Below, piece after piece: positions 40,869-56,434 of a DNA stretch of 64,000 bases. The notes under the pieces were generated by a model. It was not told the origin of the DNA, made no database searches, and was given only the letters and a program-made list of their open reading frames with translations. Position numbers and translations under genes: made by a program. The first letter of the stretch is position 1. Every line of letters begins with the position of its first letter. The DNA comes from Unio delphinus (Eukaryota > Mollusca > Bivalvia > Unionida > Unionidae), in contig JAQISU010000164.1 in assembly GCA_029339505.1 (NCBI GenBank), positions 186,001 through 250,000 on the forward strand. Reading direction: 5' to 3'.

Positions 40869-41022
40869 AATGGTACTGCGGTCACGCTCGGTGTTTCCGA
40901 TATTCTGTAAGGCAACATACTTATGATATCTAATAGCGCAATCTACAAGTTTTAGTATATAAACGTTGTTTTCCGGTGGAGAAGGTGTGATCATAATTAT
41001 CCACATCCACTCTCTTAAGTGG

Positions 41023-41311
41023 AGCAGCAGAGAGGGTGAATCCTACAACGTTTTTAGACAAAATTTGATTGAAATCCTAAAACGAGCCTTCCTACGATCT
41101 TATTTTAACCAAAAAAATGCAAACCCTACAACGTTTTGAGACAAAAAATTGATTGAAATCTCCCTGCGAAATCATTTTAACTAAAAAAATGAAAACGATT
41201 TTTTAATTAATTTTGGTCGCAACTTGTTGTCATCCACCCTCTCTGCTGCTAAAGTTTTCATCACTGGGTTAATAATTCTTTTACGATTTTAACCGAATAT
41301 TTGATCAAGTC
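41023..41311 (+). repeat. Polinton left terminal inverted repeat
   Basis: Starts AGCAGCAGAGAGGGTG and is the inverse of 55862-56150. It is built of two diverged copies of an about 85-bp unit (each with CCTACAACGTTTT and TTGATTGAAAT). The terminal motif recurs inverted at 41235-41250, inside the repeat. Confidence 0.95.
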
Positions 41312-41328
41312 TTTAGGACGAAAATCAT

Positions 41329-42723
41329 TTATGATTTCACAAACAGACTAATCGCTAACACCTCTTCTTGTAAATCAATCAGATTATTTGACTGGTCGGT
41401 GAGTTTGAAATTAATTCTGGTTAATGAATTATTATGGCATCGCATATAGACAGGATTAATTGGGTTTTCAATAATTAGGAATCCTGGAGGAGCTGTTGGT
41501 GCAAATGAATAAAGAATATATCCCTGCTGAGCTTGATTTGATTGCTCTAGATTAATCTGATAGCTTCCTTCGATAACATCACACACTAAATTGAGCGCAA
41601 TCACCGATGAAATATTCACGTTGAACGGAGCGATATGCCTGCCGCCACCGTCTGGGTCATTATTGTGTTTGAGGATTTTTATTTCCGGTGATGCTGTTTT
41701 TTTCCACGTATCATGAATTATTTTGAAACCAACATCGATGGCATCATTGAGAAGTTTTTTTAGTTCTGGTACGTTATATCCTGGTAGTTTGAATGTTGGA
41801 ATATCTTCAACGCGGATATTATAGTTTGATGCAAATCTTGTTCTCGATATGGGGTTTTTATCATCGAGTATAAATCGAATAATTTGTGAATTAAATTTTT
41901 CCATATCGTCGATAATTTTGTTACATGTTTCTACGACGCTGATAAATTCATCTCGGGTGAGAGAGCCGGATTTAAGGGGTATTAACAACAGTGATAAATC
42001 GTTGTTTATTGCATAAATCATACCAGTGATTTTAGGTTTGTTAACAAAATAATCCCCCTCTATTTTCTCCCCTGGCTTCTCTCTTCCAGTTGGTTGGTAT
42101 ATTAAATCAAAAAAATCTGTAATGAATTGGTAATCTCTATAACTACTCCCTATTGGATCATGATTTTTTATCACGTCGGTGACATAATCATTTTTTTGTG
42201 GTTCTGGTAAATCAACGGTTTTTCCCCCTGGTGGTTTTTCAGGCCATCCTAGTACGGTTCTTATTGAGCTTTGATAGATATCTACAACGTATCCTTCTGT
42301 GTTTATCTCAATTGCGGATGATAGCGTCGGTTCATGAACTGTTATAGCGATTTTTGACTCTACTCCAGTAATCGATTTTATTCTACGCGCGAATTCATTA
42401 TTGATTTGTTCAATTTGGTATGACCCTGTTGGTATCGAAACGACGTTCCAGTCTGGGGTTCCGTCGGGTTTATTCTTATTCGCAAACACTAAAGAATTAT
42501 TCGGTTGTTGACCACCAAATGATTTTGATCTGATATTAGGCCAACTGTGATACACTCGTAGTTTTGCAAGCGCTATCTCCTTCACTGGGACCGGAGAGGG
42601 GAAATTCACACTGAATTCTGGATTCGTTGATGTTATTGATATCATGCTTGTTTGTACTGGGTTCGTGTTCTCCACTATTCGTTGAAGTAATTCCTGCGGT
42701 GTTGTCATTGTTATTATACTCAT
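41329..42723 (-). CDS. Putative penton-like minor capsid protein of the Polinton
   Basis: 464 residues. The first third has the pattern of a widespread Polinton-linked virion protein: NFPSPVPVKEIALAKLRVYH, NNSLVF, then SIPTGSYQIEQINNEF (residues 96-110). The last third completes it with VIALNLVCDVIEGSY, YSFAPTAPPGFLIIENP and a final SLTRINFKLTDQSNNLIDLQ followed by LAISLFV. Between these, residues 180-340 form a largely helical insertion absent from the short versions I know. Such proteins are thought to be jelly-roll minor capsid (penton) subunits at the virion vertices. It is the last gene of the leftward block, ending 18 bp from the left inverted repeat. The family name is inferred from order and pattern; a host-contact role is possible but not shown. 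Confidence 0.6.
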   Translation of the reverse strand: MSIITMTTPQELLQRIVENTNPVQTSMISITSTNPEFSVNFPSPVPVKEIALAKLRVYHSWPNIRSKSFGGQQPNNSLVFANKNKPDGTPDWNVVSIPTGSYQIEQINNEFARRIKSITGVESKIAITVHEPTLSSAIEINTEGYVVDIYQSSIRTVLGWPEKPPGGKTVDLPEPQKNDYVTDVIKNHDPIGSSYRDYQFITDFFDLIYQPTGREKPGEKIEGDYFVNKPKITGMIYAINNDLSLLLIPLKSGSLTRDEFISVVETCNKIIDDMEKFNSQIIRFILDDKNPISRTRFASNYNIRVEDIPTFKLPGYNVPELKKLLNDAIDVGFKIIHDTWKKTASPEIKILKHNNDPDGGGRHIAPFNVNISSVIALNLVCDVIEGSYQINLEQSNQAQQGYILYSFAPTAPPGFLIIENPINPVYMRCHNNSLTRINFKLTDQSNNLIDLQEEVLAISLFVKS

Positions 42724-42942
42724 GATTTATTTCTAATTTTGGTATCGATGAATCATAAATACTGACCATCACTGAGAACTCACAATCTGGTAATGTTGAT
42801 ATTATTGAGATCATTTTGTTTTTTGGGTTCGTGTTTTCTGATTCCATCGGTGTTGTCATTGTTATTATACTCATGTTGTCGCTCTAATTTCGATATCGCG
42901 GAATCAAAAATACTGACCATCGCCGAGAATTCACTATCTGAT
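42632..42942 (-). repeat. Tandem duplication of the membrane-protein/penton gene junction
   Basis: Two diverged copies, about 42632-42790 and 42798-42942, offset by 151 bp (start-codon motifs at 42723 and 42874). Each contains the start motif encoding MSIITMTTP, which overlaps an out-of-frame HEYNNNDNT segment, and the upstream coding segment EFSxMVSIxDSxIxKLE. The duplication adds a spare start and a shifted tail; the 112-codon frame at 42536-42874 is a by-product of it. Confidence 0.85.
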
Positions 42943-43325
42943 ATAATCGTATTGTCGAGTGACGACGATATCATCAATGATAATTGCGAATATGCGGTTG
43001 ATGCAATATGAAATTGAAGTAAGTAATTCTGCAGTTTACTCTGGCTGCATGATGATATCTTTTTTGCTATCCCGGTTAATATACCCCCGATTGTAGCCAC
43101 CGCAGAAATGCAAATTGGAACTACGACCGGGGCAATCATTGTAACCGATGCAAGTATTATTCCGGCACCAGTGAGAACGCTTGACACCGAGTATATAATA
43201 ACATCAATTGTGGTGATTCTTCGTCGGTATTTTTTTATTTTTATTTGATATTCCTCAGTGAGGGTTTTGAGTCTATTTTGAAATTCTCTGACCTGATCAT
43301 AGCGACATTGCGTTGATGAAATCAT
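42780..43325 (-). CDS. Polinton membrane protein, two hydrophobic helices
   Basis: 181 residues. A charged N-terminal helix (residues 10-38, likely coiled coil) leads into two long hydrophobic segments, about 41-60 (VIIYSVSSVLTGAGIILAS) and 62-87 (MIAPVVVPICISAVATIGG), then a polar helical tail. Small proteins with this layout are common beside the fibre and penton genes of animal Polintons. They could be virion membrane or membrane-disrupting proteins, but no function is established from sequence. The C-terminal 50 residues were altered by the junction duplication: its frame now runs past the duplicated start motif and ends at 42780. Confidence 0.6.
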   Translation of the reverse strand: MISSTQCRYDQVREFQNRLKTLTEEYQIKIKKYRRRITTIDVIIYSVSSVLTGAGIILASVTMIAPVVVPICISAVATIGGILTGIAKKISSCSQSKLQNYLLQFHIASTAYSQLSLMISSSLDNTIISDSEFSAMVSIFDSAISKLERQHEYNNNDNTDGIRKHEPKKQNDLNNINITRL

Positions 43326-43376
43326 TTTTATTTTAAAAACACTAGCGTTTTCAATTGTGAAATCCGAACGATTTAG

Positions 43377-44324
43377 TTATTTACTTAAATCCGCTACGAA
43401 TTCCACATACCACGTTATTGAAACCCCAATCAAACTTTTATCAGTATATGTTATAGTGAACTTTTCAGTTTTATCCTTGTCGATGATCGTTGAAATCGTA
43501 TTGTTGACCCCGGATGAACTCGACGATGATATATTAAATTGAGTTAATGGTGTTACTAGTGTTAATCGATAAATACCTTTAACGGTTGCAGTGATATCTA
43601 ATTTGTTGTTTGTAGGTGTCCACTCAAATGATCCGTGTTGGATTGTATATACTACGTTATTGGTTTTCTCATGAGGAATTTTTGTTTTTTCAATGATTGT
43701 TATCATCCTCGAAAAATCACCTTTGACGGCTTCGATGAAAGTTTTCGTCTCATCGATGGATTTTTTAATATCAGGGAGTTTTATTTCAATTTTATCCAAC
43801 TGGGTTCCGATAAATTTATCAATGATATTTCTACGAAATGATATAAACTGTTTTACGTTATCTTCAATTCTAGATTCAAGTGTTTTTAGTACAAACACAG
43901 AATTGTTTAATTCATCGTTGAGAGTTTTTAATCGATCTGTAATCGTCGAAACGAGTACACCCGGTTTAAGTTTACCCTGATCGGAAAATAACGCGATAGT
44001 ATCCTCGATTGCGTTTTGTTGTTTAACCAAAATATCATCCAGAGAAATATTACTGGTTTTCAATTTACCCTGATCGGAAAATAACGCGATAGTATCCTCG
44101 ATTGCGTTTTGTTGTTTAACTAAAATATCATCCAGAGAAATATTACTGGATTTCAATTTACCCTGTTTGTCTTGAAATACAACTATTTCATTAGGATCAA
44201 CACTTGTTAAATTTAACGTCTCAGCTATTTCATCTTCAATTATTTTTTTTACATCCTTGATAGAATCAGGTGGTGCAGTGCCATCGGGTTTGGGTTTCAA
44301 AGATCTCCCCCAAATATCAATCAT
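43377..44324 (-). CDS. Polinton coiled-coil fibre-like protein
   Basis: 315 residues starting MIDIWGR, an opening I associate with Polinton fibre-like genes. Residues 54-115 hold two perfect-to-near-perfect 31-residue repeats (core GKLKSSNISLDDILVKQQ; 93-bp DNA unit). Residues 120-220 are predicted coiled coil from heptad-like charged helices. The C-terminal 95 residues are beta-rich (TIQHGSFEWTPTNNKLDIT, then GIYRLTLVTPLTQFNI) and look like a head domain. A trimeric stalk-and-head fibre is a reasonable inference and would act in attachment, but no known fold is proven. It ends 51 bp before the membrane-protein start. Confidence 0.5.
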   Translation of the reverse strand: MIDIWGRSLKPKPDGTAPPDSIKDVKKIIEDEIAETLNLTSVDPNEIVVFQDKQGKLKSSNISLDDILVKQQNAIEDTIALFSDQGKLKTSNISLDDILVKQQNAIEDTIALFSDQGKLKPGVLVSTITDRLKTLNDELNNSVFVLKTLESRIEDNVKQFISFRRNIIDKFIGTQLDKIEIKLPDIKKSIDETKTFIEAVKGDFSRMITIIEKTKIPHEKTNNVVYTIQHGSFEWTPTNNKLDITATVKGIYRLTLVTPLTQFNISSSSSSGVNNTISTIIDKDKTEKFTITYTDKSLIGVSITWYVEFVADLSK

Positions 44325-44325
44325 G

Positions 44326-44763
44326 TTATTGTAAAACTCTTTCTCTCTCTAAAAAGCGATTGCTGGTGTAGTCATTTACGACAATATGAGGTGGTTTTCC
44401 GCTTGGGTTACTCAAGGAGTTAGAAATAGCGTCAAGGACATTTAATACTTCGCTGCCACATATTGGTGGGTCATTGATTTGTTGTGTTGGTAGCGTAGAA
44501 TACCAAGTCTTCATTGGAAATTGTTTTATGTAACGCATAAACTCTTTTGGTGGGGCTAATCCATATGAATCAAAATAGACAATCCCACGTGGATCAATAG
44601 CGTATGCAACCCAGTGAGTTCCAGGTCCGGTGCTGTTATCGAGATTAATAATACCTGTTTCAGTTTTGTTTGGTTGATGTGGTAATTGATCTTTCATAAA
44701 GACACCTCTGAAATTTTTAATCACTAGTTTTTTAGCCGCATTCATTAAATCAAAATTGGACAT
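44326..44763 (-). CDS. Adenain-like cysteine protease of the Polinton
   Basis: 145 residues from the ATG at 44763, which lies 21 bp after the stop of the upstream core-protein gene. An in-frame ATG at 44874 is unlikely because the added residues are only the core-gene repeat read in another frame. Adenain motifs are in order: GTHWVAY (His50), YFDSYGLAPP (Asp65) and QQINDPPICG (Gln about 94-95, Cys102). They match the His-Asp/Glu-Gln-Cys arrangement of adenovirus maturation protease and C48/Ulp1-type enzymes. In Polintons and adenoviruses it cleaves capsid and core proteins during virion maturation. The usual second Cys after the CG motif is replaced (CGSEVL). Confidence 0.85.
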   Translation of the reverse strand: MSNFDLMNAAKKLVIKNFRGVFMKDQLPHQPNKTETGIINLDNSTGPGTHWVAYAIDPRGIVYFDSYGLAPPKEFMRYIKQFPMKTWYSTLPTQQINDPPICGSEVLNVLDAISNSLSNPSGKPPHIVVNDYTSNRFLERERVLQ

Positions 44764-44783
44764 AGGAATCTTCGATTCCTGAA

Positions 44784-45302
44784 TTAATAAATCGTTCCTG
44801 GTAGTCTTAGACCCTTTCCGCTGTACCACGAATACGGGGTTCCTGGTAGTCTTAGACCCTTTCCGCTGTACCAAGAATACGGGGTTCCTGGTAGTCTTAG
44901 ACCCTTTCCCTTTTTTTTATATCCTTTCCCAGTTGCTTTCTTTAGTGCCATTCCTGCTGCAGTACCAACGGCTCCTAACGCTGCCGCTTTAGCCACCGCT
45001 GGGGCTGCTGCTGCAATCAATGCTGGAATCGCAGCTAACAACGGAAATATACCGCCTGTTTTAATCATATTTTTGATAGCAGCCGCAGAAAGAGTAATCT
45101 GAACACCTTTTTTGGCTGCAAGTGCATCATTGAAATGTTTTATTTGACGAGTTGTCAGCGATAGTTTATTTGCACCACCAGTCATTTGGTTGGGTTTCAA
45201 CGTGATTGTGGTTCCACATTTTTTAGCTGATTCCGATTGAAATTTTTTTAATTGACCGGGAGTTAACGCAACACTAATAGCACTATATGACATGTTATAC
45301 AT
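44784..45302 (-). CDS. Polinton virion core-like protein with C-terminal repeats
   Basis: 172 residues (alternative start Met4). The N-terminus is polar (LTPGQLKKFQSESAKKCG; LTTRQIKHFNDALAAKKG) in two similar helix-turn blocks. A hydrophobic Ala/Gly-rich centre follows (GGIFPLLAAIPALIAAAAPA, residues 83-102). The tail is basic with two and a half copies of GKGLRLPGTPYSWYS (45-bp DNA units, residues 132-172). This resembles small core or membrane-active proteins encoded next to Polinton capsid genes and recalls adenovirus core peptides. A packaging or internal virion role is inferred. It sits between the protease and the capsid gene. Confidence 0.6.
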   Translation of the reverse strand: MYNMSYSAISVALTPGQLKKFQSESAKKCGTTITLKPNQMTGGANKLSLTTRQIKHFNDALAAKKGVQITLSAAAIKNMIKTGGIFPLLAAIPALIAAAAPAVAKAAALGAVGTAAGMALKKATGKGYKKKGKGLRLPGTPYSWYSGKGLRLPGTPYSWYSGKGLRLPGTIY

Positions 45303-45355
45303 AATAGATTGATTCTAAATCGTTTACAATTTCAATGAAAAATCGAGAAAATCAA

Positions 45356-46771
45356 TCAAAGATTTTCTACTGGGGCATCTAACACTCTCATTCTTCCTCC
45401 AACACCTTCGAGTAGCATTGATTTATCACTAAGAATGACAGCAACCGCTCTATAATTAGCAATACCACCAGGACGGGTTACACGGGCTCTAAAGTGTATA
45501 TCAACAACAGATTGTCTCATCAAATCGAGATGTTCCAATGAAAAGTAATAAATCGGATAGAGGCTTTTAAAATCCAATTGTGATATTTGCAAACCAGTAT
45601 CCACATTTTGATCACGTGCCATAAACGACAATAGGTTATGATATACACGTGCAATATGGTTGTGAGTGTAATCAAGTTGTACATCTTCAGATGGTTCCTG
45701 TTGTCCGTTTATTCTCAGTGAGACCTCTCTAACACCTAACTGATCAAATATCATATGACTTCGTTGTTGATTACCAACTCGTGCATTATTCTGTAACGCC
45801 ACAAATATATGACGTGGAGCTGAAACCCCTTGTTTTGATGCCAGATGCCAAGTAAATATATCATCAACATTGTCTTGTTTAATATCCGTAGTCACTGATA
45901 ACCAACTCAACAATGACTTTCCTCCTTGTTCCATAAATGACAACAATTTTTCTTCTGCTGTGATCGATGGAGTTAACACTGGCATCCACAATGCTAGTTT
46001 TGTTAAAATGACTTTACCATCAGCAACACCAGCATCATGCCATATTGCATCATTATCAGTACCCTTTCGTACAAGCGCTACTGTGTGTTTAGCTCCATAA
46101 ATAACCTTTCGGACATTTCTACAGAATCCAAAAATATGATGCAGTGGAATTACACATGAAAACTGTCGACGCTGTCCATGCAACGTTGCTACGCGTGTTG
46201 CAAACCCTAGGTTATAGTTAGTGATATTATTTATGACATCAAAAGTACCAGCTGGTCTTGTATATCCGGCTGGTGCTGGATCAACTGCGGTAGCTTGTGT
46301 TGCCTTGACTCTAGAATACTGGTTGTGTTCAGGGTGATCAGTAATATCCTTAGAAAACATCATAGATGGACCAGCTGATCTTGTATAATCATCAGAGTAT
46401 CTCGCTAACCCTATGATTGTTGTGGCCACATCAACTTCACGGTCAATGGATTCAATTTCCTTTCCATCAATGAGATATCTAGCGCTTTCAAATAACGCCA
46501 TGATCCCATTATTAACAAAACCGACTTTGATAGTTGGGTTATTGTCATATGGTGTATTAGCATCGACATTTGTTACAAGTTCTCCTTCTACTTCAATAAA
46601 TGCTTCACACGGTAGAAAATATTTACTGGTATCATGAACTTGAAGTTCAATTCGCGATCGGAGATCTGGTTGTACTGCGTGATAAGAATAAAATTGAAAA
46701 TCGCGTACAGAATCATTCTTGCCAACTGGGGCATCCATATCAAATGCTGGATCAGGTGACCTTTTGAACAT
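45356..46771 (-). CDS. Polinton major capsid protein (double jelly-roll)
   Basis: 471 residues, intact. Signature elements are DAPVGKNDSVRDFQFYSY near the N-terminus, FVNNGIMALFESARYLIDGK (residues 86-105), the family hallmark CVIPLHHIFGFC (206-217) followed by VIYGAKHTVALVRKG, and the C-terminal YYFSLEHLDLMRQSVVDIHF. These correspond to the two jelly rolls of Polinton/adintovirus hexon-like proteins, which form pseudohexameric capsomers of an icosahedral shell. No stop or frameshift is present, so a folded capsid protein could be made. Confidence 0.93.
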   Translation of the reverse strand: MFKRSPDPAFDMDAPVGKNDSVRDFQFYSYHAVQPDLRSRIELQVHDTSKYFLPCEAFIEVEGELVTNVDANTPYDNNPTIKVGFVNNGIMALFESARYLIDGKEIESIDREVDVATTIIGLARYSDDYTRSAGPSMMFSKDITDHPEHNQYSRVKATQATAVDPAPAGYTRPAGTFDVINNITNYNLGFATRVATLHGQRRQFSCVIPLHHIFGFCRNVRKVIYGAKHTVALVRKGTDNDAIWHDAGVADGKVILTKLALWMPVLTPSITAEEKLLSFMEQGGKSLLSWLSVTTDIKQDNVDDIFTWHLASKQGVSAPRHIFVALQNNARVGNQQRSHMIFDQLGVREVSLRINGQQEPSEDVQLDYTHNHIARVYHNLLSFMARDQNVDTGLQISQLDFKSLYPIYYFSLEHLDLMRQSVVDIHFRARVTRPGGIANYRAVAVILSDKSMLLEGVGGRMRVLDAPVENL

Positions 46772-46810
46772 TTATTCTATTTATCAGAGTCTAAATCGCG
46801 ATTTTTCATT

Positions 46811-47272
46811 TCATCGTCGTGTTTTTTTAAAGCCACTTCCTGCTATCATGTTTGCTATCATGTTATTTTGGTCCCCTTGATTTATCAAGGGAGTCACCAT
46901 CGACGCTAATTTTTCGTCTACTGCGTTATTTATAATTCTACTAACACTTGCAGGCATTTCCGCTGTAGACGGTAACGGTTTCTTTTTTCGTAAATCACTT
47001 CGTGATTTCACTAATGATGTTAATTTATTCTTCGCAGTTGAAAATGCTTTTCCAGCAAGATCTCCAACAGCACTAATCCCCTTATCACGAATAACATCAA
47101 TTGCTTTCATTGATAATTGTTTAGCTAACGGCATCACTTTTGGAGCCATTCTCGCAAATAACCCTGCAATGGTATTGCCTAAACCATCTCCGTAGTATGC
47201 TCTATAAACTGGAAACCGTGAATTAACTACATAGACGAGGGTTGGTTTATCATGATTGTAGTGTATGATCAT
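46811..47272 (-). CDS. Small Polinton virion protein, pVI/pX-like
   Basis: 153 residues. A short leader precedes YYGDGLGNTIAGLFARMAPK (residues 26-45), an amphipathic glycine-led helix. A basic helical region follows (KNKLTSLVKSRSDLRKKK) and the protein ends GSGFKKTRR. Small proteins with a G-x-GLG...GLF helix lie beside Polinton capsid genes and are compared with adenovirus minor core/cement proteins (pVI, pX). A virion-internal role is inferred. Its leader matches that of the next gene upstream at 28 of 30 positions. Confidence 0.55.
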   Translation of the reverse strand: MIIHYNHDKPTLVYVVNSRFPVYRAYYGDGLGNTIAGLFARMAPKVMPLAKQLSMKAIDVIRDKGISAVGDLAGKAFSTAKNKLTSLVKSRSDLRKKKPLPSTAEMPASVSRIINNAVDEKLASMVTPLINQGDQNNMIANMIAGSGFKKTRR

Positions 47273-47302
47273 TATTTTAAATCAGAAACAATTTTTCAAT
47301 TG
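47273..47302 (-). promoter_or_regulatory. Shared late-gene leader, copy 1
   Basis: The 30 bp immediately before the start codon at 47272 matches 48363-48392 at 28 positions. The common core read on the plus strand is AAATCAGAAACAATTTT followed by CAATTG. A promoter or 5' leader for virion genes is inferred. Confidence 0.5.
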
Positions 47303-47312
47303 ACTTTTCAAT

Positions 47313-48362
47313 TCAGTCACTATGATACCCACTTTCCACTAACTCGCCAATGAAATCTCGATATGTGCTGATATCCATGATACCACCCTGAAATAATCGT
47401 CTACAGATATCAGCTGCTTCATTAATTATTTCCGGTGAGTTATTTCCGGCTCGTTTTCCTCCGATGAGAACCTCTAATCGTGATATATCACTGAGAACAC
47501 TACCAGGACATGAAATCCAAGGATTTTCCCTCGAAGAGTTTCCAACTAAACCACTGCCTGAAAATCCTTTGGTTTTATCAGTGATACCGGTTGCACCTTT
47601 TTCATGATCAGCTTCTCTCGTTATTTTCATCGGTTGGGGGGATTGTGTTATATCAATAAATTTTGATTGTTCTGGTAGTCTAAGAAATCCGGTATCCGAT
47701 TGCTCCCCTATAGATGATTCAGCTTTTTTTATTGCTGCCATATATTCCTGAAATGTTTTATCATCTCCTTTTGCTTGAGAGGAACCTGATAGTATACGAT
47801 ATAACCCCCTATACCAATCTTTTTTAGGGGGAAGATTATAATCACCTTGAATATATTTTCTTCTCTGATGAAAACTCCTAGTGACAAATTGGGCTAATTC
47901 TTCCATAGAATCAAATTTTTTATTTCTCAATTCATCTAATTTACCGGGAAGAAGTTTTTCATTGAATGCAACTCGTCCACTAGTAGTATCCTCCCCTTCT
48001 TCTTGAAATTCGGGTGGGGGGATATCTTCTTGAAGTTCTCGTTGTTGTTCTGAAGCGGTTGATATATCCTGAGGAAGTGTTTTCAATGATTTTTTTGTTT
48101 GTTTAGTTCTTTTTGCTATTTTTTCTAACACAGGAAGAAAAGACTCTTCTTGTTTTTTTCCTTCTTCAGAGATTGTTGACACTATCTGTTTCGTTGCTGT
48201 GGTTACTGGTTTAAACAATTCTTCAGACCCCACAGCAAAATCAGTTTGTAAACTCTGTCGTTGTTGCAGTTTATTCCGTACAGAGTCGCGAATTGGTACA
48301 AATTTCTTAATTGCATCCAGTCGTTCACGAGCCAATCGGGTTGTTAATGCTTCATTGACCAT
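47313..48362 (-). CDS. Polinton structural or assembly protein, unknown function
   Basis: 349 residues. The N-terminus is LTTRLARERLDAIKKFVPIR with long charged helices. The centre (residues 95-130) is acidic and disordered. Residues 180-190 contain KKDWYRGLYRIL. The C-terminus has SGLVGNSSRENPW, then GSVLSDISRLEVLIGGKRAG and a three-helix end. Polintons of marine invertebrates often encode a protein with a similar C-terminal G-x-L...LE.LLG.I.AGN module beside the capsid genes, which I recall without a known function. It is the first long gene of the virion block and carries the shared leader. Confidence 0.5.
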   Translation of the reverse strand: MVNEALTTRLARERLDAIKKFVPIRDSVRNKLQQRQSLQTDFAVGSEELFKPVTTATKQIVSTISEEGKKQEESFLPVLEKIAKRTKQTKKSLKTLPQDISTASEQQRELQEDIPPPEFQEEGEDTTSGRVAFNEKLLPGKLDELRNKKFDSMEELAQFVTRSFHQRRKYIQGDYNLPPKKDWYRGLYRILSGSSQAKGDDKTFQEYMAAIKKAESSIGEQSDTGFLRLPEQSKFIDITQSPQPMKITREADHEKGATGITDKTKGFSGSGLVGNSSRENPWISCPGSVLSDISRLEVLIGGKRAGNNSPEIINEAADICRRLFQGGIMDISTYRDFIGELVESGYHSD

Positions 48363-48392
48363 TATTTGAAATCAGAAACAATTTTCCAATTG
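48363..48392 (-). promoter_or_regulatory. Shared late-gene leader, copy 2
   Basis: Partner of 47273-47302. Weaker echoes (AATTG near A-runs, or CGATTTAGA) lie before the core-protein, capsid and membrane-protein genes. Confidence 0.5.
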
Positions 48393-48461
48393 CAAAACAC
48401 TTTTTCAATCCCGACCTAACACCATCGATTTTTGACATCCCTTGAGGGTCGGCTAAAAAAA

Positions 48462-48540
48462 AAATGATTAATGGTCGGGCAATCAAATAATGATAAATAG
48501 TCGGTCAATCAAATAATGATAAATGGTCGGTCAATCAAAA
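48462..48540. repeat. About 26-bp intergenic repeat, three copies
   Basis: GGTCGG(G/T)CAATCAAATAATGATAAAT repeated three times in the 170-bp gap between two Polinton genes. It could be a regulatory or origin-like array, or only slippage. Confidence 0.75.
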
Positions 48541-48936
48541 TTGTTCATTTTCTTGAATTAACGCCCGTAGGTTTCTAACTTTAGAATTAACCTCCTTTTT
48601 CAATTCGTATTCGTACCCCAATTCTTTTCGTATTCGTTCTACGATGGTATACAACGGAGCGAACACACTTACGTCACTGGAAAATGCGAGAGAGTCCTTA
48701 ATAGAATTCTGAATTCTTTTGATGAGCGCATACTTCTTTGGTAGCATATATTTATTGTTGTTAACTCCGTATTCTATATCCTGAAAATCAGACATGATTT
48801 GATCAGGATTTAACCCATCTGATAGTTCAATATCCCAACTTTTCAATTTTGAAATCTCGAATAAAATGCTATTCATGTTTTCAGAATTCATTATTCTATA
48901 ATAATGATATATTTCTAAATGAAAAATATGACGCAT
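48535..48936 (-). CDS. Small Polinton protein, unrecognised
   Basis: 133 residues, helical and charged, with no family that I recognise. The first ATG (48936) overlaps the stop of the HNH gene as TAATG, which suggests re-initiation. The internal ATG at 48891 (MNSENMNS) is an alternative start. The C-terminal helix KELGYEYELKKEVNSKVRNL may be a coiled coil. Confidence 0.5.
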   Translation of the reverse strand: MRHIFHLEIYHYYRIMNSENMNSILFEISKLKSWDIELSDGLNPDQIMSDFQDIEYGVNNNKYMLPKKYALIKRIQNSIKDSLAFSSDVSVFAPLYTIVERIRKELGYEYELKKEVNSKVRNLRALIQENEQF

Positions 48937-49427
48937 TAGACGTAACTAAATCGAATTTTCTGTCCTGTCTTTTTTGAAATCGCCGTTTTGGTTATCCCCT
49001 CTGCAACTCTTCGTACTGAGGGTGGACAAATATCGAAGTGCCTACCGGCGCTAGTTATTGATTGAAATATTTTTTCTTCGTTAGTTATCGTATTCAAAGA
49101 TTTCACAGGTCTCGCTTTTTTTGAGCATTTTCCAGTCTCTCCTCTTTTCAAATTCTCACTTTGTGTGATAGCTTGCAGATTTGATAAAGAATTGTTTTTC
49201 GGATTAGAATCCTTGTGATCAATGACAGAATCATCCTCGATCAATCCATAAAAACACTCAAATGCGAAACGATGATTGAGATAAGTTTTCTTTCCAGCAC
49301 CAAACACCAAATACCCCATACCATTGTCAGCACCAACTGATTTCTTCAGTCTGCGGTTTCTTACAACACCATCAGTGGATGCTTCATAATTTGTGATCAC
49401 AGGGTGTTGTCTGAATTCTTGGTTCAT
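48936..49427 (-). CDS. HNH endonuclease with NUMOD-like flanks (homing type)
   Basis: 163 residues. An N-terminal NUMOD4-like segment (YEASTDGVVRNRR) precedes an HNH_3-type core: NHRFAFECFYGLI (His52), VIDHKDSNPKNNSLSNLQ (His71, with Asn residues at 75-83). A NUMOD1-like DNA-binding segment follows (IFQSITSAGRHFDICPPSVR), with a KTGQKIRFSYV tail. This domain order is that of phage and large-virus group-I-intron-style homing endonucleases. It would nick or cleave DNA with a Zn or Mg co-factor. All key histidines and asparagines are in place. It is unusual as a gene of an animal Polinton and may be a cargo gene acquired from viruses. Confidence 0.85.
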   Translation of the reverse strand: MNQEFRQHPVITNYEASTDGVVRNRRLKKSVGADNGMGYLVFGAGKKTYLNHRFAFECFYGLIEDDSVIDHKDSNPKNNSLSNLQAITQSENLKRGETGKCSKKARPVKSLNTITNEEKIFQSITSAGRHFDICPPSVRRVAEGITKTAISKKTGQKIRFSYV

Positions 49428-49441
49428 TCGTATACATAATA

Positions 49442-49846
49442 CTATTGTTTGTCTAATTCATCGTTTGGTTTAATGATAAATCTTTCGATGTAGTCTTGAG
49501 GAGTTCTTATGATTTTATCCTTGATACTGACTTTGTCAGCGTCAAGAATACTGACTTTGTCAGCGTCAAGAATACTGACTTTGTCAGCGTCAGGGTCAAA
49601 ATTTCTGATTGATTGTCCATTTTTGATTCTTTTATCATAATATCGCTTCAACTCCCTGTATCGCTTACCACCGCAATTTAGACACAACTGAGATTTTCCC
49701 CTGACCCCAACTCCACATAGAATACAGGGTAACGGACCAAGGCTTCCACGTCGAAAGCTTTGCATATGATACCCACAAAACTCATTTCTGCATGATTTGT
49801 TACACGGGGTTACTGATCCAATCATAAGCCACTTGCAGTGATTCAT
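49442..49846 (-). CDS. Cys-rich zinc-binding protein with 8-residue repeats
   Basis: 134 residues from the ATG at 49846 (an ATG at 49864 adds six). CKWLMIGSVTPCNKSCRNEF, with C-G-Y-H after it, forms one zinc site. PCILCGVGVRGKSQLCLNCG forms a second, a CxxC...CxxC ribbon. After a basic helix come three tandem copies of DADKVSIL (24-bp DNA units). The N-terminal cysteine pattern is one I associate with small zinc proteins of nucleocytoplasmic viruses and Polintons. A nucleic-acid or ubiquitin-related role is possible but unproven. Its start faces the replicase gene across about 40 bp. Confidence 0.6.
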   Translation of the reverse strand: MNHCKWLMIGSVTPCNKSCRNEFCGYHMQSFRRGSLGPLPCILCGVGVRGKSQLCLNCGGKRYRELKRYYDKRIKNGQSIRNFDPDADKVSILDADKVSILDADKVSIKDKIIRTPQDYIERFIIKPNDELDKQ

Positions 49847-49856
49847 TATATAAAAA
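49847..49856 (+). promoter_or_regulatory. TATA box in the divergent intergenic region
   Basis: TATATAAAAA lies about 33 bp before the ATG at 49889. The 42-bp gap between the zinc protein and the replicase must hold promoters for both directions. Confidence 0.5.
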
Positions 49857-49888
49857 TCTTTCATTTAAATGCTTGTTTTAATTATAGC

Positions 49889-52800
49889 ATGAAGGAATTA
49901 AGGAAAACGCCTTCGAAAAATGCTGATAAGGAGTTTAAGAGATTATTAAAAATCAATCCTAGATTTAATCTCGATAGACCCAAAAAACGTCCAATAGACG
50001 GAAACATGAAAGAGTTTAAGAGATTATTAAAAATCAATCCTAGATTTAATCTCGATAAACCAAAAAGACGTAACAAACGTCCAATAGACGGAAACATGAA
50101 AGAGTTTAAGAGATTATTGAAAATCAATCCTAAATTTAATCTCGATAAACCAAAAAGACGTAACAAAATCAATCCTAGATTTAATCTCGATAAACCCAAA
50201 AAACGTCCAATAGACGGAAACATGAAAGAGTTTAAGAGATTATTGAAAATCAATCCTAGATTTAATCTCGATAAACCAAAAAAAACGTCCAAGAGAGATT
50301 ACCCTTGGAAAGATGCTCAATTCAATCTCGATATAGCTTCTAATACACCAAAGAATACAATTCTTGATAAAGCCATGATTAGTAAAATCAGAGACTGTTT
50401 TAATGAATTTAAGCGTGATGGAGCATCTTATTGTTGGTCAACATTTCGAATTGATGGTGTTGTTGACGCTACCATGAATGATGAAAAAGCAGCAGTGATA
50501 ATTTCACGTGTTGGGGAAAAACGGTATTTTTTCCGAATCAAATTCATTATCGAAGTCGATGGCAAATGGATTATTAAGGATAAATTTGAACCAATCCTCA
50601 AGAATAAAAAAGCTGTCATTGTGAGTAGAGATTCCAAACCAGGGATTCTAACCGGCATTGATAAACCATACTACGAAAGATCTTATCCCGTAACAGCAAT
50701 GGTTTATGGGATATATCCGTTAAATGATAAACCCGATATCGCAAAACTAGCTCCTATGAAATATTCGTCAGGGCTTAATTGTGTAGCAGAACGAATAATA
50801 GAACACTTCACAAATGCATCCCGAGGAAATAAACTAACTGATCTGCGACGTAGGAAAATAACCGAGTGGGAACTGACAGTGAAACAGCATGGTGCAAAGA
50901 TTTCTGATATAGCTAAATTAGAAACATCATTAAGATTTCCAATAACAGTTATGACGATAACGGGAGAGGTTTTATACGAACCGAAATATAACAAAAATGG
51001 AGCGCCAATACAGATTATTGATCATAACAAACACGCGTGGACACCTGCGGTAACAATATTTCCACGAGAACGAACCGTGAAATATATCCCTAAGGAGTTC
51101 GTCGGGGATGTTTTCTATGAAGAGAAATTATTCGATGCTATTCATGCGTTGTGTAAGGATGATCCTTTGTCAGTGTGGTTACTTAGAAGTGATGAAGAAT
51201 TCGATCAATTTGTAAAACCAAATGGTGAATTATATCGCGTTGAAGAATTAGATAACAGAATGAGAAAAATCGCTAGTGATTTTTCACCGGAGAATTCCCA
51301 TGAAAAACTACTCACGGATAGTTTTACTATTCCATCAGTGGTAGCTCACTTCGCAAGAGAAAAAAACTCATGGCGTCCAACACGAAATGATTTTCTCGAG
51401 GATGTTAAATTGAGTTGCGTCGAATTCGGTCATGGAGGACTGTGGAATACGAAATACTCACGTGATGGTATGATTTCAATTGATATATCCGCGTGTTATC
51501 CCGGAAGTTTTCTCGGGTATGGGGAATGCGCTGAGTACTTCAAACGATTTGGACACCCCACGCATGAAATGACTCGTGTTGCGATCAATGGACCATTGCC
51601 TGATTTTGATATAACCGGATTCGCTCGTGTGATATCATTCGAATTAGCTACAGGGTTACATCCGTGTAGTTATGTTTGGCTCGGTAGACACCTATCTGAA
51701 AAACACTGGATGCCAATAGTGCTATTGAGATATATGATTGATTGTGGTATGCTAATATCGTTGATTGTTTCCGAGGCTATTATATGCTATCGAGCTCAGA
51801 AAGAAGTTTGGCTACCACAACCCGATCTAGATAGAATAATCAACGAACTACGAAAACAATTTCCAGATTTCAGTGAAGAAGAAATCATAAATTGGTCTAA
51901 GAAGTTATTTGAAATTAAAAAAGAACAAGCAAAAGATCTCGGAAGAAGAATAATCGGTAAATTTACCCAGGGTGGACGATACGATAACGCAAAATACTCT
52001 TCGCGGTTGATCATAGATGTCGCTGAATACGATTTTATTGTAGCGGATTTAATGAAACAGGGAAAACTTGTATCCCGTAAGGATGCTTTTCTATCCAATG
52101 GTGAGAAATTAGGTACGGTTGTTACCTACTGTGATGGATATAATTCCCAGTACACACATTTGAGAAGTTCAATGCTAGCCTATGCTTCTATTAATCTATT
52201 TTCGATGATAAATAGATTTCCTAATACCGCGGTTAGAGTGGCCACTGATTCGATGTATATACACAATAAGTACAAATCAGCTGTAGCGGCATTCACAGAT
52301 CCCGAAGAAAATTGGGGGCGTTGGCGATTTAAAAAAGAGATGCTACATGAGTATTGTGAATCCGCAGACGTTGCCATGGATGATAAATATCTTTGTTGTA
52401 ACCGTATTGAAATTCAATCAGAATTTTCTAATGCACCACCGGTATCTGATCCAGTATGTAGATACAAGACAGTTTATTTAAACGGTTGTGGCGGGTCAGG
52501 AAAGACAACTCGTGCAATTGAATTATTTCGTCGTGGAAACGCTAGCGTTTCTAACATGATTGTGCTAACACCGACTCACAGACTCGCCAGAGAGATGATA
52601 CAACGAGGGGTAAATGCTTGCACTTATCACAGTTTTTTTCGATGGAAAGGTGACAAATGGACTCCTGAGCGTATGGGTGATAAATTCATTCCTGAAATCA
52701 TAATTTGGGATGAAATATGCACAGTGTCATTAGATGTATTACAAACATTTCTTGAGTGGTTGTTAAACAAAAACACAAAAGTCGTCATGTGCGGGGATCA

Positions 52801-53527
52801 CGGCCAACCACCACCATTTGTCGGTGCATCTCCACATGAATGGCTAAAGGGTTTTGTAGACTACTATGAAGAAATCACCACTGATTATAGATCACTTGAT
52901 GAACGATTACGCGAGTTCAAAGCGCTAATTAGATTACAACCGGATAGAATCCAATGCGAAATAGCGCGTGAAGTGATTTCAGAAACTCCAATGAATGATT
53001 TCTGGGAAACATGGACACCAAACGATTTGATCATTGCAAGTAGAAAAATAGTCAGGGATACACTTCAGATGAAGTTATTTGAATTGCATAAAGAAAAATT
53101 TGCAACGCTTCCAGTACCCCTTTGTTATAGGCCATCGGATACACGAAAACAGAATATTGAAGTTGATATTCCAGGACAGAGTGAAAAACAAATTCTGGTA
53201 TTAAATGATATTGTGCTGGTTGATATCAATGTCGTTGAAGATGCATTGCGTGCTAATAAATCCCCGTGGACGCTAGGATACGCAGCAACAATACACTCTT
53301 CACAGGGATTGACTATATCGGATACAATTGTTTGGATGGTGGATAATCACATCGAATGGTCGAATTTAGTCTATCTCGCAGTATCCAGAGTACGAAAAAT
53401 AAATCAACTTCGAAGAGTTGTTTTCGATGATAATGACACAACAATGGATGATATTGATGTTAAAATTATTGATAAAAAACTCTCCGGTTACAAACAACAG
53501 GACAAAAAAAAAACAACGAGAATTTGA
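49889..53527 (+). CDS. Fused family-B DNA polymerase-like / SF1 helicase replicase
   Basis: About 1212 residues from the ATG at 49889; the frame is open from 49838, and numbering here is from 49838. Residues 30-150 hold four full and one partial copies of a basic repeat (EFKRLLKINPRFNLD). The middle has NCVAERIIEHF and ETSLRFPITVMTI. Polymerase motif A is SIDISACYPGS (Asp549), a motif B-like RRIIGKFTQGGRY follows near 685-700, and motif C is VRVATDSMYI (Asp804). The helicase half begins at Walker A GCGGSGKTT (883-891). It continues with IIIWDE (Asp958, Glu959), VVMCGDHGQPPP (982-993), AATIHSSQGLTIS (about 1149-1162) and YLAVSRV (1179-1185), all SF1 (RecD/Pif1-like) motifs. No DEDD exonuclease motif is evident. 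It would copy and unwind the element. Canonical Polinton polymerases lack this helicase. An HNH frame follows in +1. Confidence 0.8.
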   Translation: MKELRKTPSKNADKEFKRLLKINPRFNLDRPKKRPIDGNMKEFKRLLKINPRFNLDKPKRRNKRPIDGNMKEFKRLLKINPKFNLDKPKRRNKINPRFNLDKPKKRPIDGNMKEFKRLLKINPRFNLDKPKKTSKRDYPWKDAQFNLDIASNTPKNTILDKAMISKIRDCFNEFKRDGASYCWSTFRIDGVVDATMNDEKAAVIISRVGEKRYFFRIKFIIEVDGKWIIKDKFEPILKNKKAVIVSRDSKPGILTGIDKPYYERSYPVTAMVYGIYPLNDKPDIAKLAPMKYSSGLNCVAERIIEHFTNASRGNKLTDLRRRKITEWELTVKQHGAKISDIAKLETSLRFPITVMTITGEVLYEPKYNKNGAPIQIIDHNKHAWTPAVTIFPRERTVKYIPKEFVGDVFYEEKLFDAIHALCKDDPLSVWLLRSDEEFDQFVKPNGELYRVEELDNRMRKIASDFSPENSHEKLLTDSFTIPSVVAHFAREKNSWRPTRNDFLEDVKLSCVEFGHGGLWNTKYSRDGMISIDISACYPGSFLGYGECAEYFKRFGHPTHEMTRVAINGPLPDFDITGFARVISFELATGLHPCSYVWLGRHLSEKHWMPIVLLRYMIDCGMLISLIVSEAIICYRAQKEVWLPQPDLDRIINELRKQFPDFSEEEIINWSKKLFEIKKEQAKDLGRRIIGKFTQGGRYDNAKYSSRLIIDVAEYDFIVADLMKQGKLVSRKDAFLSNGEKLGTVVTYCDGYNSQYTHLRSSMLAYASINLFSMINRFPNTAVRVATDSMYIHNKYKSAVAAFTDPEENWGRWRFKKEMLHEYCESADVAMDDKYLCCNRIEIQSEFSNAPPVSDPVCRYKTVYLNGCGGSGKTTRAIELFRRGNASVSNMIVLTPTHRLAREMIQRGVNACTYHSFFRWKGDKWTPERMGDKFIPEIIIWDEICTVSLDVLQTFLEWLLNKNTKVVMCGDHGQPPPFVGASPHEWLKGFVDYYEEITTDYRSLDERLREFKALIRLQPDRIQCEIAREVISETPMNDFWETWTPNDLIIASRKIVRDTLQMKLFELHKEKFATLPVPLCYRPSDTRKQNIEVDIPGQSEKQILVLNDIVLVDINVVEDALRANKSPWTLGYAATIHSSQGLTISDTIVWMVDNHIEWSNLVYLAVSRVRKINQLRRVVFDDNDTTMDDIDVKIIDKKLSGYKQQDKKKTTRI
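49929..50290 (+). repeat. In-frame tandem repeats at the replicase N-terminus
   Basis: Units of about 81-90 bp encode EFKRLLKINPRFNLDKPK plus a linker (RPIDGNMK). Copies differ by few bases and one is truncated. The strong DNA identity shows recent expansion. Confidence 0.95.
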
Positions 53528-53729
53528 TATTGATGCTAAATTAATAATCACTTTGAAGAAACAACAGAATAATCACTGCGCGAGTTGCAATTGTATAATG
53601 CGTTGGCAGTATTCGGATAAGGATCCTCGCCAATTCACCGTAGACAGAAAAAATAACAATCTCGGTCATGTCAGAAATAATGTGATGTTGACTTGTCTTG
53701 AGTGCAATAGACGCAAAGGCGCTAGTTAA
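53504..53729 (+). CDS. HNH (endonuclease VII/HNH_5-like) domain, +1 frame after the replicase
   Basis: The frame is open upstream to 53418, where it overlaps the replicase. From the A10 tract it encodes REFDIDAKL, HCASCNCIMRWQYSDKD, FTVDRKNNNLGHVRNN and VMLTCLECNRRKGAS. This is a compact HNH nuclease with two CxxC pairs and the central D/H-N residues (VDR...GHVRNNV). It has no plausible start of its own at the domain edge. In related replicase proteins that I recall from fungi and cnidarians, an HNH tail of this kind directly follows the helicase. It is therefore probably the C-terminal domain of the replicase, displaced by a +1 shift within the run of ten A at 53504-53513. The shift could be a mutation, an assembly error or recoding. 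Confidence 0.75.
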
Positions 53730-54510
53730 GACCATGCGGTGGCAATTGAGTATCCTCGGGAATCACTTGTAGTTGTTGTCGAGTAAAACCCCGCTGAGGG
53801 GCAGTTGAATCCAGTTTATAGACTGGAGGTCTACCAGTTGATCGTGTTATACTAGATATCTTATGCGTAGTGACGCTCCAAATAGGATCAGTAGCCCTTT
53901 TTCTACCCCCTTCAAGCTCTCCTGGTTCGTATAAGTACCTCACAATGACATTACTACCAAGAATTGGTTGGGAAACGCTAGCGTTTCTAGGGAAATCTTT
54001 TTGTGGTTGTACGGGTATTGACTTCTTTTTAATCGCGTTGATAGGTTTCATGTTGATTGTTCTAGTAATCTCGTTATTCAGTGCAGTAATCACAGATGGT
54101 AATCTTTTAACCCATTCACTGGATCGCTTTTCTTGAATGAATTCTTTTGCGTATTGATATCCAAATAACCGCTCAGCAATCGTCCGATTAAATCGTTCTA
54201 CAATGGCCTGATCGCGATGTAGCGCAGTATGCCCTCGTCGTATGGTGACATTATGATGTTTCATTGTAGATAACACTGCACCCTGAAATTCCTTGCCAGG
54301 ATCAACCTGCAATAGATTTGGCCAACGCAGAGGACCTCGTCGATAAATCCTTTCAAATGCAGAAGCGACTTCAGTGGCTGATTTTGTTTTTAACGGTTCT
54401 GCTTCTTTGTATCGACTTGCAATATCAACTACGGTTAACGCATATTTGTAACCACGATCATGTGGCAGAAATAATATATCAGCCTGATGAACTTCATTAG
54501 GAGCGGTCAC
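53722..54510 (-). CDS. Polinton integrase (rve family, DD35E), main frame
   Basis: 262 residues with the retroviral-integrase-like catalytic core: HQADILFLPHD (Asp11), LLQVDPGKEFQ (Asp70) and AIVERFNRTIAERL (Glu105). The spacing Asp70-Glu105 gives DD35E. The C-terminal 90 residues contain a beta-rich DNA-binding part (IVRYLYEP, PIWSVTTHKISSI, VYKLD). It joins element ends to host DNA. The coding sequence evidently continues further upstream: the same frame stays open and family-like to the A-tract at 54597-54604, beyond which the N-terminus is in another frame (separate entry). The stop at 53722 overlaps the end of the HNH frame on the other strand. Confidence 0.9.
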   Translation of the reverse strand: MTAPNEVHQADILFLPHDRGYKYALTVVDIASRYKEAEPLKTKSATEVASAFERIYRRGPLRWPNLLQVDPGKEFQGAVLSTMKHHNVTIRRGHTALHRDQAIVERFNRTIAERLFGYQYAKEFIQEKRSSEWVKRLPSVITALNNEITRTINMKPINAIKKKSIPVQPQKDFPRNASVSQPILGSNVIVRYLYEPGELEGGRKRATDPIWSVTTHKISSITRSTGRPPVYKLDSTAPQRGFTRQQLQVIPEDTQLPPHGLN

Positions 54511-54685
54511 ATCAAAATGCGAGAATTGAATTTGTTTAGGCGGTGGTAGATAAATTTGCCATAGTGCCTGTTTGGATAACCAATTAGCCGCAGTGGTTTT
54601 TTTTCACTTTTGCAGCTCTAGCGAGTTTATTGATTGCAGCGTTACCCCTCCAGTATCCCCTCGGAGAATAATAAATTGATTCCAT
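54511..54685 (-). pseudogene. Integrase N-terminal segment, frameshifted at an A8 tract
   Basis: The ATG at 54685 opens a frame (IYYSPRGYWRGNAAINKLA) typical of Polinton integrase N-termini, a zinc-less helical head. It reads through a run of eight A (54597-54604 on the minus strand) into a stop soon after. The main integrase frame is entered by a +1 shift at this run, after which family-like residues (QALWQIYLPPPKQIQF) lead into the catalytic core. It starts 5 bp after the stop of the PLA2 frame. Confidence 0.8.
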
Positions 54686-54689
54686 ATTA

Positions 54690-55049
54690 TTAATTACCAG
54701 CACCTAACATCAATTTACTTTTCATAGCCGATTTTATCAAAAATGAAGCCAATTTTTCTTTGAAGGATTTATCAGGAATAGCATTTAACGCATGAATTAA
54801 TTTCACATCCGCGAGATGCCTGTTTTGCAGATTGCTGCTTTTATAAGCAACATCATGAAGGTGACAGACCTTATCAATGGCGTTTATTGGTTCTTCACCG
54901 GGGTTGGGTTGATTTTGATTATTGAGTCTGATATCAAGTCTGGTTCCTGGTCCACAGTAGCTATATCCTGGGAGGTGCTTTTCTCCGGGGTATTTTGCCC
55001 ATGGGGTTCCAGGGAGTTTTGCTAATTTGGCTGCGATATCACCTCCTCG
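54690..55049 (-). CDS. Parvovirus-type phospholipase A2 domain, -1 frame after the zinc ribbon
   Basis: About 110 codons, open from the A9 tract to the stop at 54690, with no start codon of its own near the domain edge. Motifs are LPGTPWAKYPGEKHLPGYSY, then CGPGTRLD, the Ca-binding loop, and KVCHLHDVAYK with the HD catalytic dyad followed by x-x-Y. These are the features of PLA2 domains in the parvovirus VP1 unique region and in several Polintons, where the enzyme is thought to breach endosomal membranes. It is continuous with the zinc-ribbon gene only if a -1 shift occurs at 55050-55060. Ordinary frame searches with an ATG requirement miss it. Confidence 0.8.
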   Translation of the reverse strand, partial: RGGDIAAKLAKLPGTPWAKYPGEKHLPGYSYCGPGTRLDIRLNNQNQPNPGEEPINAIDKVCHLHDVAYKSSNLQNRHLADVKLIHALNAIPDKSFKEKLASFLIKSAMKSKLMLGAGN

Positions 55050-55207
55050 TTTTTTTTTAAATCAGATCCCATAGACACAAATCTAAATTTCTTTGTACCA
55101 CATTGCACGCATTTACCAGAAAGCGCTGATCGGTTATTTTTTGTTGTAATCGTCGTCAAGTCATCTGTGCCAGTACGCGTTTTACACTTCACACAATATA
55201 GATCCAT
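55022..55207 (-). CDS. Zinc-ribbon domain (DUF5679-like), zero frame
   Basis: 61 residues: MDLYCVKCKTRTGTDDL, then GKCVQCGTKKFRFVS. Two CxxC pairs form a zinc ribbon seen in many DNA-virus and Polinton proteins. In the zero frame the protein continues only about 15 residues past the ribbon, over an A9 tract, and stops at 55022. The shifted frame encodes the PLA2 domain. The start is 5 bp from the divergent ATPase start, so promoters must overlap coding sequence. Confidence 0.85.
   Translation of the reverse strand: MDLYCVKCKTRTGTDDLTTITTKNNRSALSGKCVQCGTKKFRFVSMGSDLKKNEEVISQPN
55048..55060 (-). promoter_or_regulatory. Candidate -1 ribosomal frameshift site
   Basis: Minus-strand RNA would read U UUA AAA AAA AAC in the zero frame of the zinc ribbon. 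This contains two canonical X XXY YYZ heptamers, U UUA AAA and A AAA AAC, both in register. A -1 slip enters the open PLA2 frame; the zero frame stops about eight codons later. I cannot confirm a downstream pseudoknot. Confidence 0.5.
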
Positions 55208-55212
55208 AATTT

Positions 55213-55884
55213 ATGTATAGAAATATGGATATAATTGATTTTTCAGCGACTAAAACAAGAGAACCAATTAAGCATCATGCAGCGCTACCAAACTCTATCC
55301 GGATGATTATAATCGGGCCATCTGGATCCGGTAAAACGCAATTGTTGCTCAATTTAATAATGAGATGGATGAAGTGGGATAAGTTGTATTTAATTGCCCC
55401 TAGCGTAGATGATCAACGATGTTATGAAGTGCTAAAAGATTTTAACGAGAATGCATCAGAAATTAAGGGTGAGAACGCCATTGATTTTATAACCGATATC
55501 GATGAAGCACCGAGCATTGATGATATTGATGGAGATATTAACAATTTAGTCGTATACGACGATATAATGTTGGATAAACAAAAAAATCCTGCTAGAATAT
55601 TTTCCCGTGGGCGTCACAAAAACACTGATGTGATATATGTCACTCAACGCTACACTCAGGTTCCAAAAGTCATCAGAGATAACTGCAATTTATTGTCTGT
55701 ATTCAACGGAGTTGATACTCATACTCTTAGAAATATTTGGCAGACATGGTGTTCTGATATGGACTTCAATCAATTTCGAGATTTCTTTAGTCATGCTCAG
55801 TCGACTCCGCACGGATTCGCAACAATAAATCTACATGATCCTCGGACACGATATCGTATCGGACTTGATCAAATATTCGGTTAA
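55213..55884 (+). CDS. FtsK/HerA-type genome-packaging ATPase (A32-like)
   Basis: 223 residues (alternative start at 55225, MDIIDFS). Walker A is GPSGSGKT (residues 35-42), preceded by the hydrophobic strand SIRMIIIG. Walker B is NLVVYDDIM (Asp116-Asp117). A downstream ARGRHKNTDVIYVTQRYTQV-like segment (FSRGRHKNTDVIYVTQRY) provides the sensor and arginine finger region. It pumps element DNA into capsids in Polintons, adintoviruses and poxvirus-like relatives. The last seven codons and the stop lie inside the right inverted repeat. Confidence 0.92.
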   Translation: MYRNMDIIDFSATKTREPIKHHAALPNSIRMIIIGPSGSGKTQLLLNLIMRWMKWDKLYLIAPSVDDQRCYEVLKDFNENASEIKGENAIDFITDIDEAPSIDDIDGDINNLVVYDDIMLDKQKNPARIFSRGRHKNTDVIYVTQRYTQVPKVIRDNCNLLSVFNGVDTHTLRNIWQTWCSDMDFNQFRDFFSHAQSTPHGFATINLHDPRTRYRIGLDQIFG

Positions 55885-56150
55885 AATCGTAAAAGAATTA
55901 TTAACCCAGTGATGAAAACTTTAGCAGCAGAGAGGGTGGATGACAACAAGTTGCGACCAAAATTAATTAAAAAATCGTTTTCATTTTTTTAGTTAAAATG
56001 ATTTCGTAGGGAGATTTCAATCAATTTTTTGTCTGAAAACGTTGTAGGGTTTGCATTTTTTTGGTTAAAATAAGATCGTAGGAAGGCTCGTTTTAGGATT
56101 TCAATCAAATTTTGTCTAAAAACGTTGTAGGATTCACCCTCTCTGCTGCT
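55862..56150 (-). repeat. Polinton right terminal inverted repeat
   Basis: Inverse of 41023-41311 over 289 bp. The inner edge includes the end of the ATPase gene. The internal inverted copy of the terminal motif is at 55923-55938. Confidence 0.95.
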
Positions 56151-56434
56151 AGTGGGCTATTTAACAAGGCCATACACTCCTAAGTATGTCGGTTCCTTGT
56201 TCTCGAGCAAACCTGTCTTACATAAATACTGGTCGTGACTTGTGAACCTTTTAACCCATAAATGGTTGGTTCTTGCGGCTTTGCACTACTCAGGGCCGGA
56301 TCAATGTGTGGAGGTAGGGCGGTTTCAATGTTTCCAGATCCCACTTGCAAAAAAATACACACACGCACATGTACAGTCACTTGTCCATCATTTCCTTCTC
56401 GCAGACGTTTTTCCCCCAAGAGTAATGATATAAA

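Follow-up and report, generated by a model that had tools for sequence, protein, structure and literature searches.

Polymerase-helicase fusions in described elements

Protein-primed family B DNA polymerases (pPolB) fused to a superfamily 1 helicase (SF1; S1H) have been described from polinton-like viruses (PLVs), the ciliate element Tlr1 and transpovirons, in the order TP-vOTU-palm-S1H, where TP is the terminal protein. In its sections on these fusions, PMC11071308 predicts active polymerases despite an altered motif C and reports an HNH or GIY-YIG nuclease at the C-terminus of some members. Joining a polymerase to a helicase is therefore not a new design; protist viruses and mobile elements have it as well. 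Here we describe a 64,000-nt stretch of Unio delphinus contig JAQISU010000164.1 (positions 186,001 to 250,000; hereafter the window), in which a 15-kb element carries an open reading frame (ORF) at 49889-53527 that is likely the replicase of a polinton-like element, a single polypeptide predicted to handle priming, unwinding and copying of the element's DNA.

The window replicase shares with the class, as far as PMC11071308 describes it, a predicted palm with a degenerate motif C, the lack of an apparent working exonuclease, a predicted OTU-like domain upstream of the palm and an SF1 helicase at the C-terminal end of the polypeptide that carries palm motifs A, B and C; an HNH or GIY-YIG tail occurs in some class members. 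It differs in that the HNH is nearly universal in the window family and in that the family has sea slug and Glomeromycota members; we liken the two by architecture, the viral scans having yielded no Tlr1, PLV or transpoviron sequences. Other fusions are arranged differently. OmPLV, an endogenous PLV of Oxyrrhis marina, also joins an SF1 helicase to pPolB, but according to the relevant part of PMC12721341 its helicase is N-terminal and its exonuclease complete. Mavirus pPolB, in the account of PMC11071308, resembles the window protein in its exonuclease, reported as a remnant, and in a motif C without the first Asp, whereas in mavirus the helicase, of the SF3 type, has a gene of its own. HelPol replicases, likened here by description only, are reported on contigs mixed with adintovirus genes in a section of PMC11071296, section 16 of which defines adintoviruses by an OTU-bearing PolB and a hexon recognizable by BLASTP, with an integrase bearing a C-terminal chromodomain. 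In fungi, passages of PMC7805220 report a PLV insertion with a major capsid protein, ATPase and helicase in Allomyces, and, in Rhizophagus, polintons in which no capsid gene was detected. Among the open-licence literature matches listed, we found no report of a pPolB-S1H-type fusion in an animal or glomeromycete genome.

A predicted palm and an SF1 helicase in one reading frame

A preliminary description of this DNA had placed the palm motifs DISACYP and ATDS upstream of an SF1 helicase in a single ORF, and this arrangement was confirmed (Table 1). The helicase region is matched by Pfam AAA_19 (E 4.4e-12) and AAA_30 (E 1.7e-9). Pfam finds only the helicase in this protein and no polymerase domain; the PolB-like palm, also proposed earlier, is predicted by structure modeling, with mavirus pPolB as the best named viral fold match. 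Residues are numbered on the 1212-aa protein, and the structure models begin at residue 139 (model number = residue number minus 138). An alternative GTG start at 49838 would extend the ORF (49838-53527) to 1229 aa.

Searches returned 73 homologues of the replicase at E <= 1e-3. In the rows covering each position, the motif A Asp is kept in 45/46, and both the motif B-like Lys and the second Asp of motif C in 48/49; the first residue of motif C is Ala in 48 of 49. The number of homologues, together with the conservation of the motif A and motif C Asp residues, places the polymerase-helicase signal beyond chance.

The best structural alignment to phi29 polymerase begins at phi29 residue 52, inside the phi29 exonuclease domain and past its first exonuclease motif. 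It is therefore possible that a remnant exonuclease scaffold persists. Within model residues 247-385, an acidic residue occupies five positions in 80% or more of the rows that cover them: 269 (2 rows only), 307 (87% of 46), 331 (85% of 27), 353 (84% of 45) and 374 (48/48). Since the alignment starts past the first motif, and since the window replicase has Asn at both 307 and 331, a working exonuclease is unlikely. The earlier statement that no exonuclease motif is apparent thus holds insofar as no complete catalytic set is apparent in the replicase, but not for the remnant that the structural alignment leaves possible.

Upstream of the palm, a little-finger-like, putative TP domain is predicted, which among pPolB-S1H fusions section 10 of PMC11071308 names for TvV-S1. 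Within it, Tyr266 is a candidate priming residue, selected by a rule given in section 7 of the same paper. The Cys and His of the OTU-like pattern that follows are invariant among covered homologues. Near the N-terminus, the peptide EFKRLLKINPRFNLDKP occurs in tandem as four full copies and one partial copy; 15 of the 73 homologues match a loose pattern of it once. Possibly this peptide serves as a short motif for binding.

The HNH domain and a frame break

The preliminary description had the HNH nuclease following in the same polypeptide, which is not the case in this copy: the replicase stops at 53527, the open frame containing the HNH spans 53403-53729 and the two frames part at a run of ten A. 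The HNH stretch matches an endonuclease VII-like family in PHROGs (E 7e-11) and Pfam HNH only below cut-off (E 0.007).

Elsewhere in the family, the HNH is in frame in 37 of the 38 homologues that reach at least 150 aa beyond the helicase motif H[ST][ST]QG. The profile behind this count was built from eight homologues, all of which are among the 37; overall it is matched by 50/73 homologues. The single long homologue without an in-frame HNH is a Gigaspora gene model (P0064), and the nearest relative of the window replicase (P0001, 72% identical) has the HNH in frame. Because of this near-universal in-frame position, the HNH looks like a fixed part of the replicase family rather than a sporadic homing insertion. 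With its HNH out of frame, the window copy probably makes a replicase without this domain, unless slippage at the A run joins the frames.

Relatives of the replicase

Twenty of the 73 homologues carry an organism name. Sixteen are Glomeromycota (Diversispora, Gigaspora, Cetraspora, Racocetra, Ambispora and Rhizophagus), three come from the sea slug Elysia crispata and one from a metagenome-assembled genome of Candidatus Thiodiazotropha, a group of bivalve symbionts. The preliminary description had named arbuscular fungi and cnidarians as sources of similar proteins; the former are represented, and no cnidarian is found among the 20 named. A replicase tree was built from the window replicase and 49 of the 73 homologues, 50 rows in all (midpoint rooting was for drawing only). 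In it the nine fungal-named rows form one clade (100/100), and the window replicase clusters with four other homologues (100/100), apart from the two Elysia rows. A degraded copy of the window-type replicase was also seen on a contig binned as a Diapherotrites archaeon (L001); it is probably eukaryotic contamination.

A capsid-encoding element with terminal inverted repeats

The replicase lies within an element bounded by terminal inverted repeats (TIRs) that differ at 2 of 289 positions; outside these, AGTGG stands on either side as a direct repeat of 5 bp (41018-41022 and 56151-56155). The earlier proposal of a capsid-encoding element is confirmed by the capsid, ATPase, protease-like and integrase genes and the TIRs. 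By gene content we label this set adintovirus-like. About 200 nt inside each TIR lies an inverted second copy of its 16-nt end (AGCAGCAGAGAGGGTG; 41235-41250 and 55923-55938), so that each TIR, over most of its length, has ends like those of a small separate element.

Table 1. Features of the element in the window (window coordinates)
Feature	Position	Strand	Remarks
Whole element	41023..56150		15,128 bp, within the 64-kb window
Left TIR	41023..41311	+	289 nt
Adenain-like maturation protease	44326..44874	-	PF00770 E 1e-3, 19.2 bits, below Pfam cut-off 21.3
Double-jelly-roll capsid protein	45356..46771	-	PF21738 E 4.9e-19
Free-standing HNH_3 homing endonuclease	48936..49427	-	Pfam E 4.1e-12
Replicase ORF	49889..53527	+	1212 aa from ATG
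Tandem N-terminal peptide copies	49931..50278	+	EFKRLLKINP[RK]FNLD[RK]P
Tyr266, candidate priming residue	50684..50686	+	Codon; between alpha2 and last strand, Pro next
Predicted OTU-type protease domain	50726..51052	+	Cys298 codon 50780-50782, His379 codon 51023-51025
Possible exonuclease remnant	51062..51457	+	Aligns structurally from phi29 residue 52 onward
Predicted protein-primed PolB-like palm	51458..52372	+	
Palm motif A	51482..51502	+	DISACYP at residue 532 of 1212
Palm motif B-like	51950..51973	+	
Palm motif C	52241..52252	+	ATDS; ATDSMY at residue 785
SF1 (Pif1/RecD2/Dda-like) helicase	52442..53425	+	Pfam and fold
Run of ten A	53504..53513	+	Divergence point of replicase and HNH frames
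HNH (endonuclease VII-like) coding stretch	53523..53729	+	Frame differs from replicase
rve integrase core	53722..54510	-	GTG start; E 3.5e-9
Phospholipase A2-like protein (open frame)	54693..55061	-	PF08398 E 1.2e-11
DUF5679 zinc-ribbon-like protein	55025..55210	-	Pfam E 4.7e-14
A32-type packaging ATPase	55213..55884	+	PF04665 E 9.8e-13
Right TIR	55862..56150	-	

The TIRs, double-jelly-roll capsid, packaging ATPase, adenain-like protease (below cut-off), rve integrase and length of about 15 kb are shared with Polintons/Mavericks and adintoviruses. Unlike Polintons, the element has no separate pPolB gene with an exonuclease: its sole replicase is the helicase fusion, and no second polymerase-sized ORF is present in it, the next longest being 471 aa. 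The flanking repeat also differs from the polinton target-site duplication, which is 6 bp. The family had further been presented as orphan proteins of unknown context; this view does not stand, as the architecture fits the pPolB-S1H ("Tlr1-like helicase") class, which sections 9-10 of PMC11071308 already tie to capsid-encoding PLVs, Tlr1 and transpovirons.

The open frame of the integrase core extends to 54603 with no ATG upstream in frame, so the N-terminal part of the integrase may be absent, or encoded elsewhere and joined to it. Among relatives of the capsid protein, the sole organism names are the freshwater mussels Sinanodonta and Potamilus (4/54 distinct proteins in two pooled searches, 2/22 and 3/53). 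Short tandem or near duplications lie within or between the virion-region genes (42690-42943, 43965-44150 and 44794-44928), as if the element readily gained short repeats. Just downstream of the element is a Pao-type retrotransposon (57578-60656; Peptidase_A17 E 8e-42), a group not known outside animals. Together with the mussel names among the capsid relatives, this makes an animal host probable. At 1409-2629, a WD40 gene that also encodes a CAF1C histone-binding domain probably belongs to the host and is of the GRWD1/RBBP kind.

Proposed mechanism and alternative explanations

In the replication scheme that we propose, the N-terminal little-finger-like domain would act as the terminal protein, with Tyr266 accepting the nucleotide that starts synthesis at the end of the TIR, and the OTU-like domain would then cut off this primer domain. 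The palm would extend by strand displacement while the fused helicase opens the duplex, substituting for the missing exonuclease. The HNH could nick or resolve branched or nicked DNA, and the rve integrase would carry out integration.

A rival reading concerns the palm, whose motif C, ATDS, has Ala in nearly all covered homologues in place of the first metal-binding Asp; according to section 10 of PMC11071308, the authors of the class initially took this change, when they met it in Tlr1-like proteins, for a sign of inactivation. The palm would then be dead, the protein a helicase only and the element copied by a host polymerase. We consider this improbable: nearly all covered homologues retain the Asp of motif A, the Lys of the motif B-like stretch and the second Asp of motif C, and the same section lists PolBs without the first motif C Asp (mavirus, pipolins and some archaeal enzymes) as active. 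It is more improbable still that the HNH belongs to a homing endonuclease gene of its own that simply follows the replicase. The different frame in the window copy and the free-standing HNH_3 gene nearby would fit such a gene, but the in-frame HNH of the nearest relative and of all but one of the long-enough homologues argues for a replicase domain.

The A run and the integrase core bear on a different question, whether the element is the fossil of a once active virus that lost its replicase tail by an indel and its integrase start as well. The frame change at ten A and the integrase frame lacking an upstream ATG are what a fossil would show, and we regard this as unlikely, though considerably less so than a dead palm. 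Against it, the element's remaining large ORFs are uninterrupted. The TIRs are nearly identical, so insertion or turnover was probably recent, and a homopolymer assembly error would give an identical picture at the A run.

Implications for the replicase family

One tentative reading is that the element may stand for its own lineage of viruses in animals and fungi. In this lineage, adintovirus-like virion genes and a retrovirus-like integrase would be built on a single self-priming replicase, whose one chain would unite the primer protein, the protease that releases it, the polymerase, the helicase and, as a fixed component, an HNH that cuts branched DNA. The ancestral little-finger primer domain would be kept, and the genes found in Glomeromycota and in the sea slug would represent endogenous copies. 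What appears new is which genes are combined and in which hosts, with capsid and replicase seen together in this one element only. Set beside the published pPolB-S1H replicases from PLVs, Tlr1 and transpovirons that PMC11071308 covers, a fusion in a likely animal host together with an integrase and polinton-/adintovirus-like virion genes would blur the border between polintons and PLVs. Such a host and gene set would also offer a possible source for the Glomeromycota and Elysia genes. With a family of this size, and with Tyr266 as a candidate for priming, a single enzyme could serve to test protein priming, self-cleavage and the role of the HNH.
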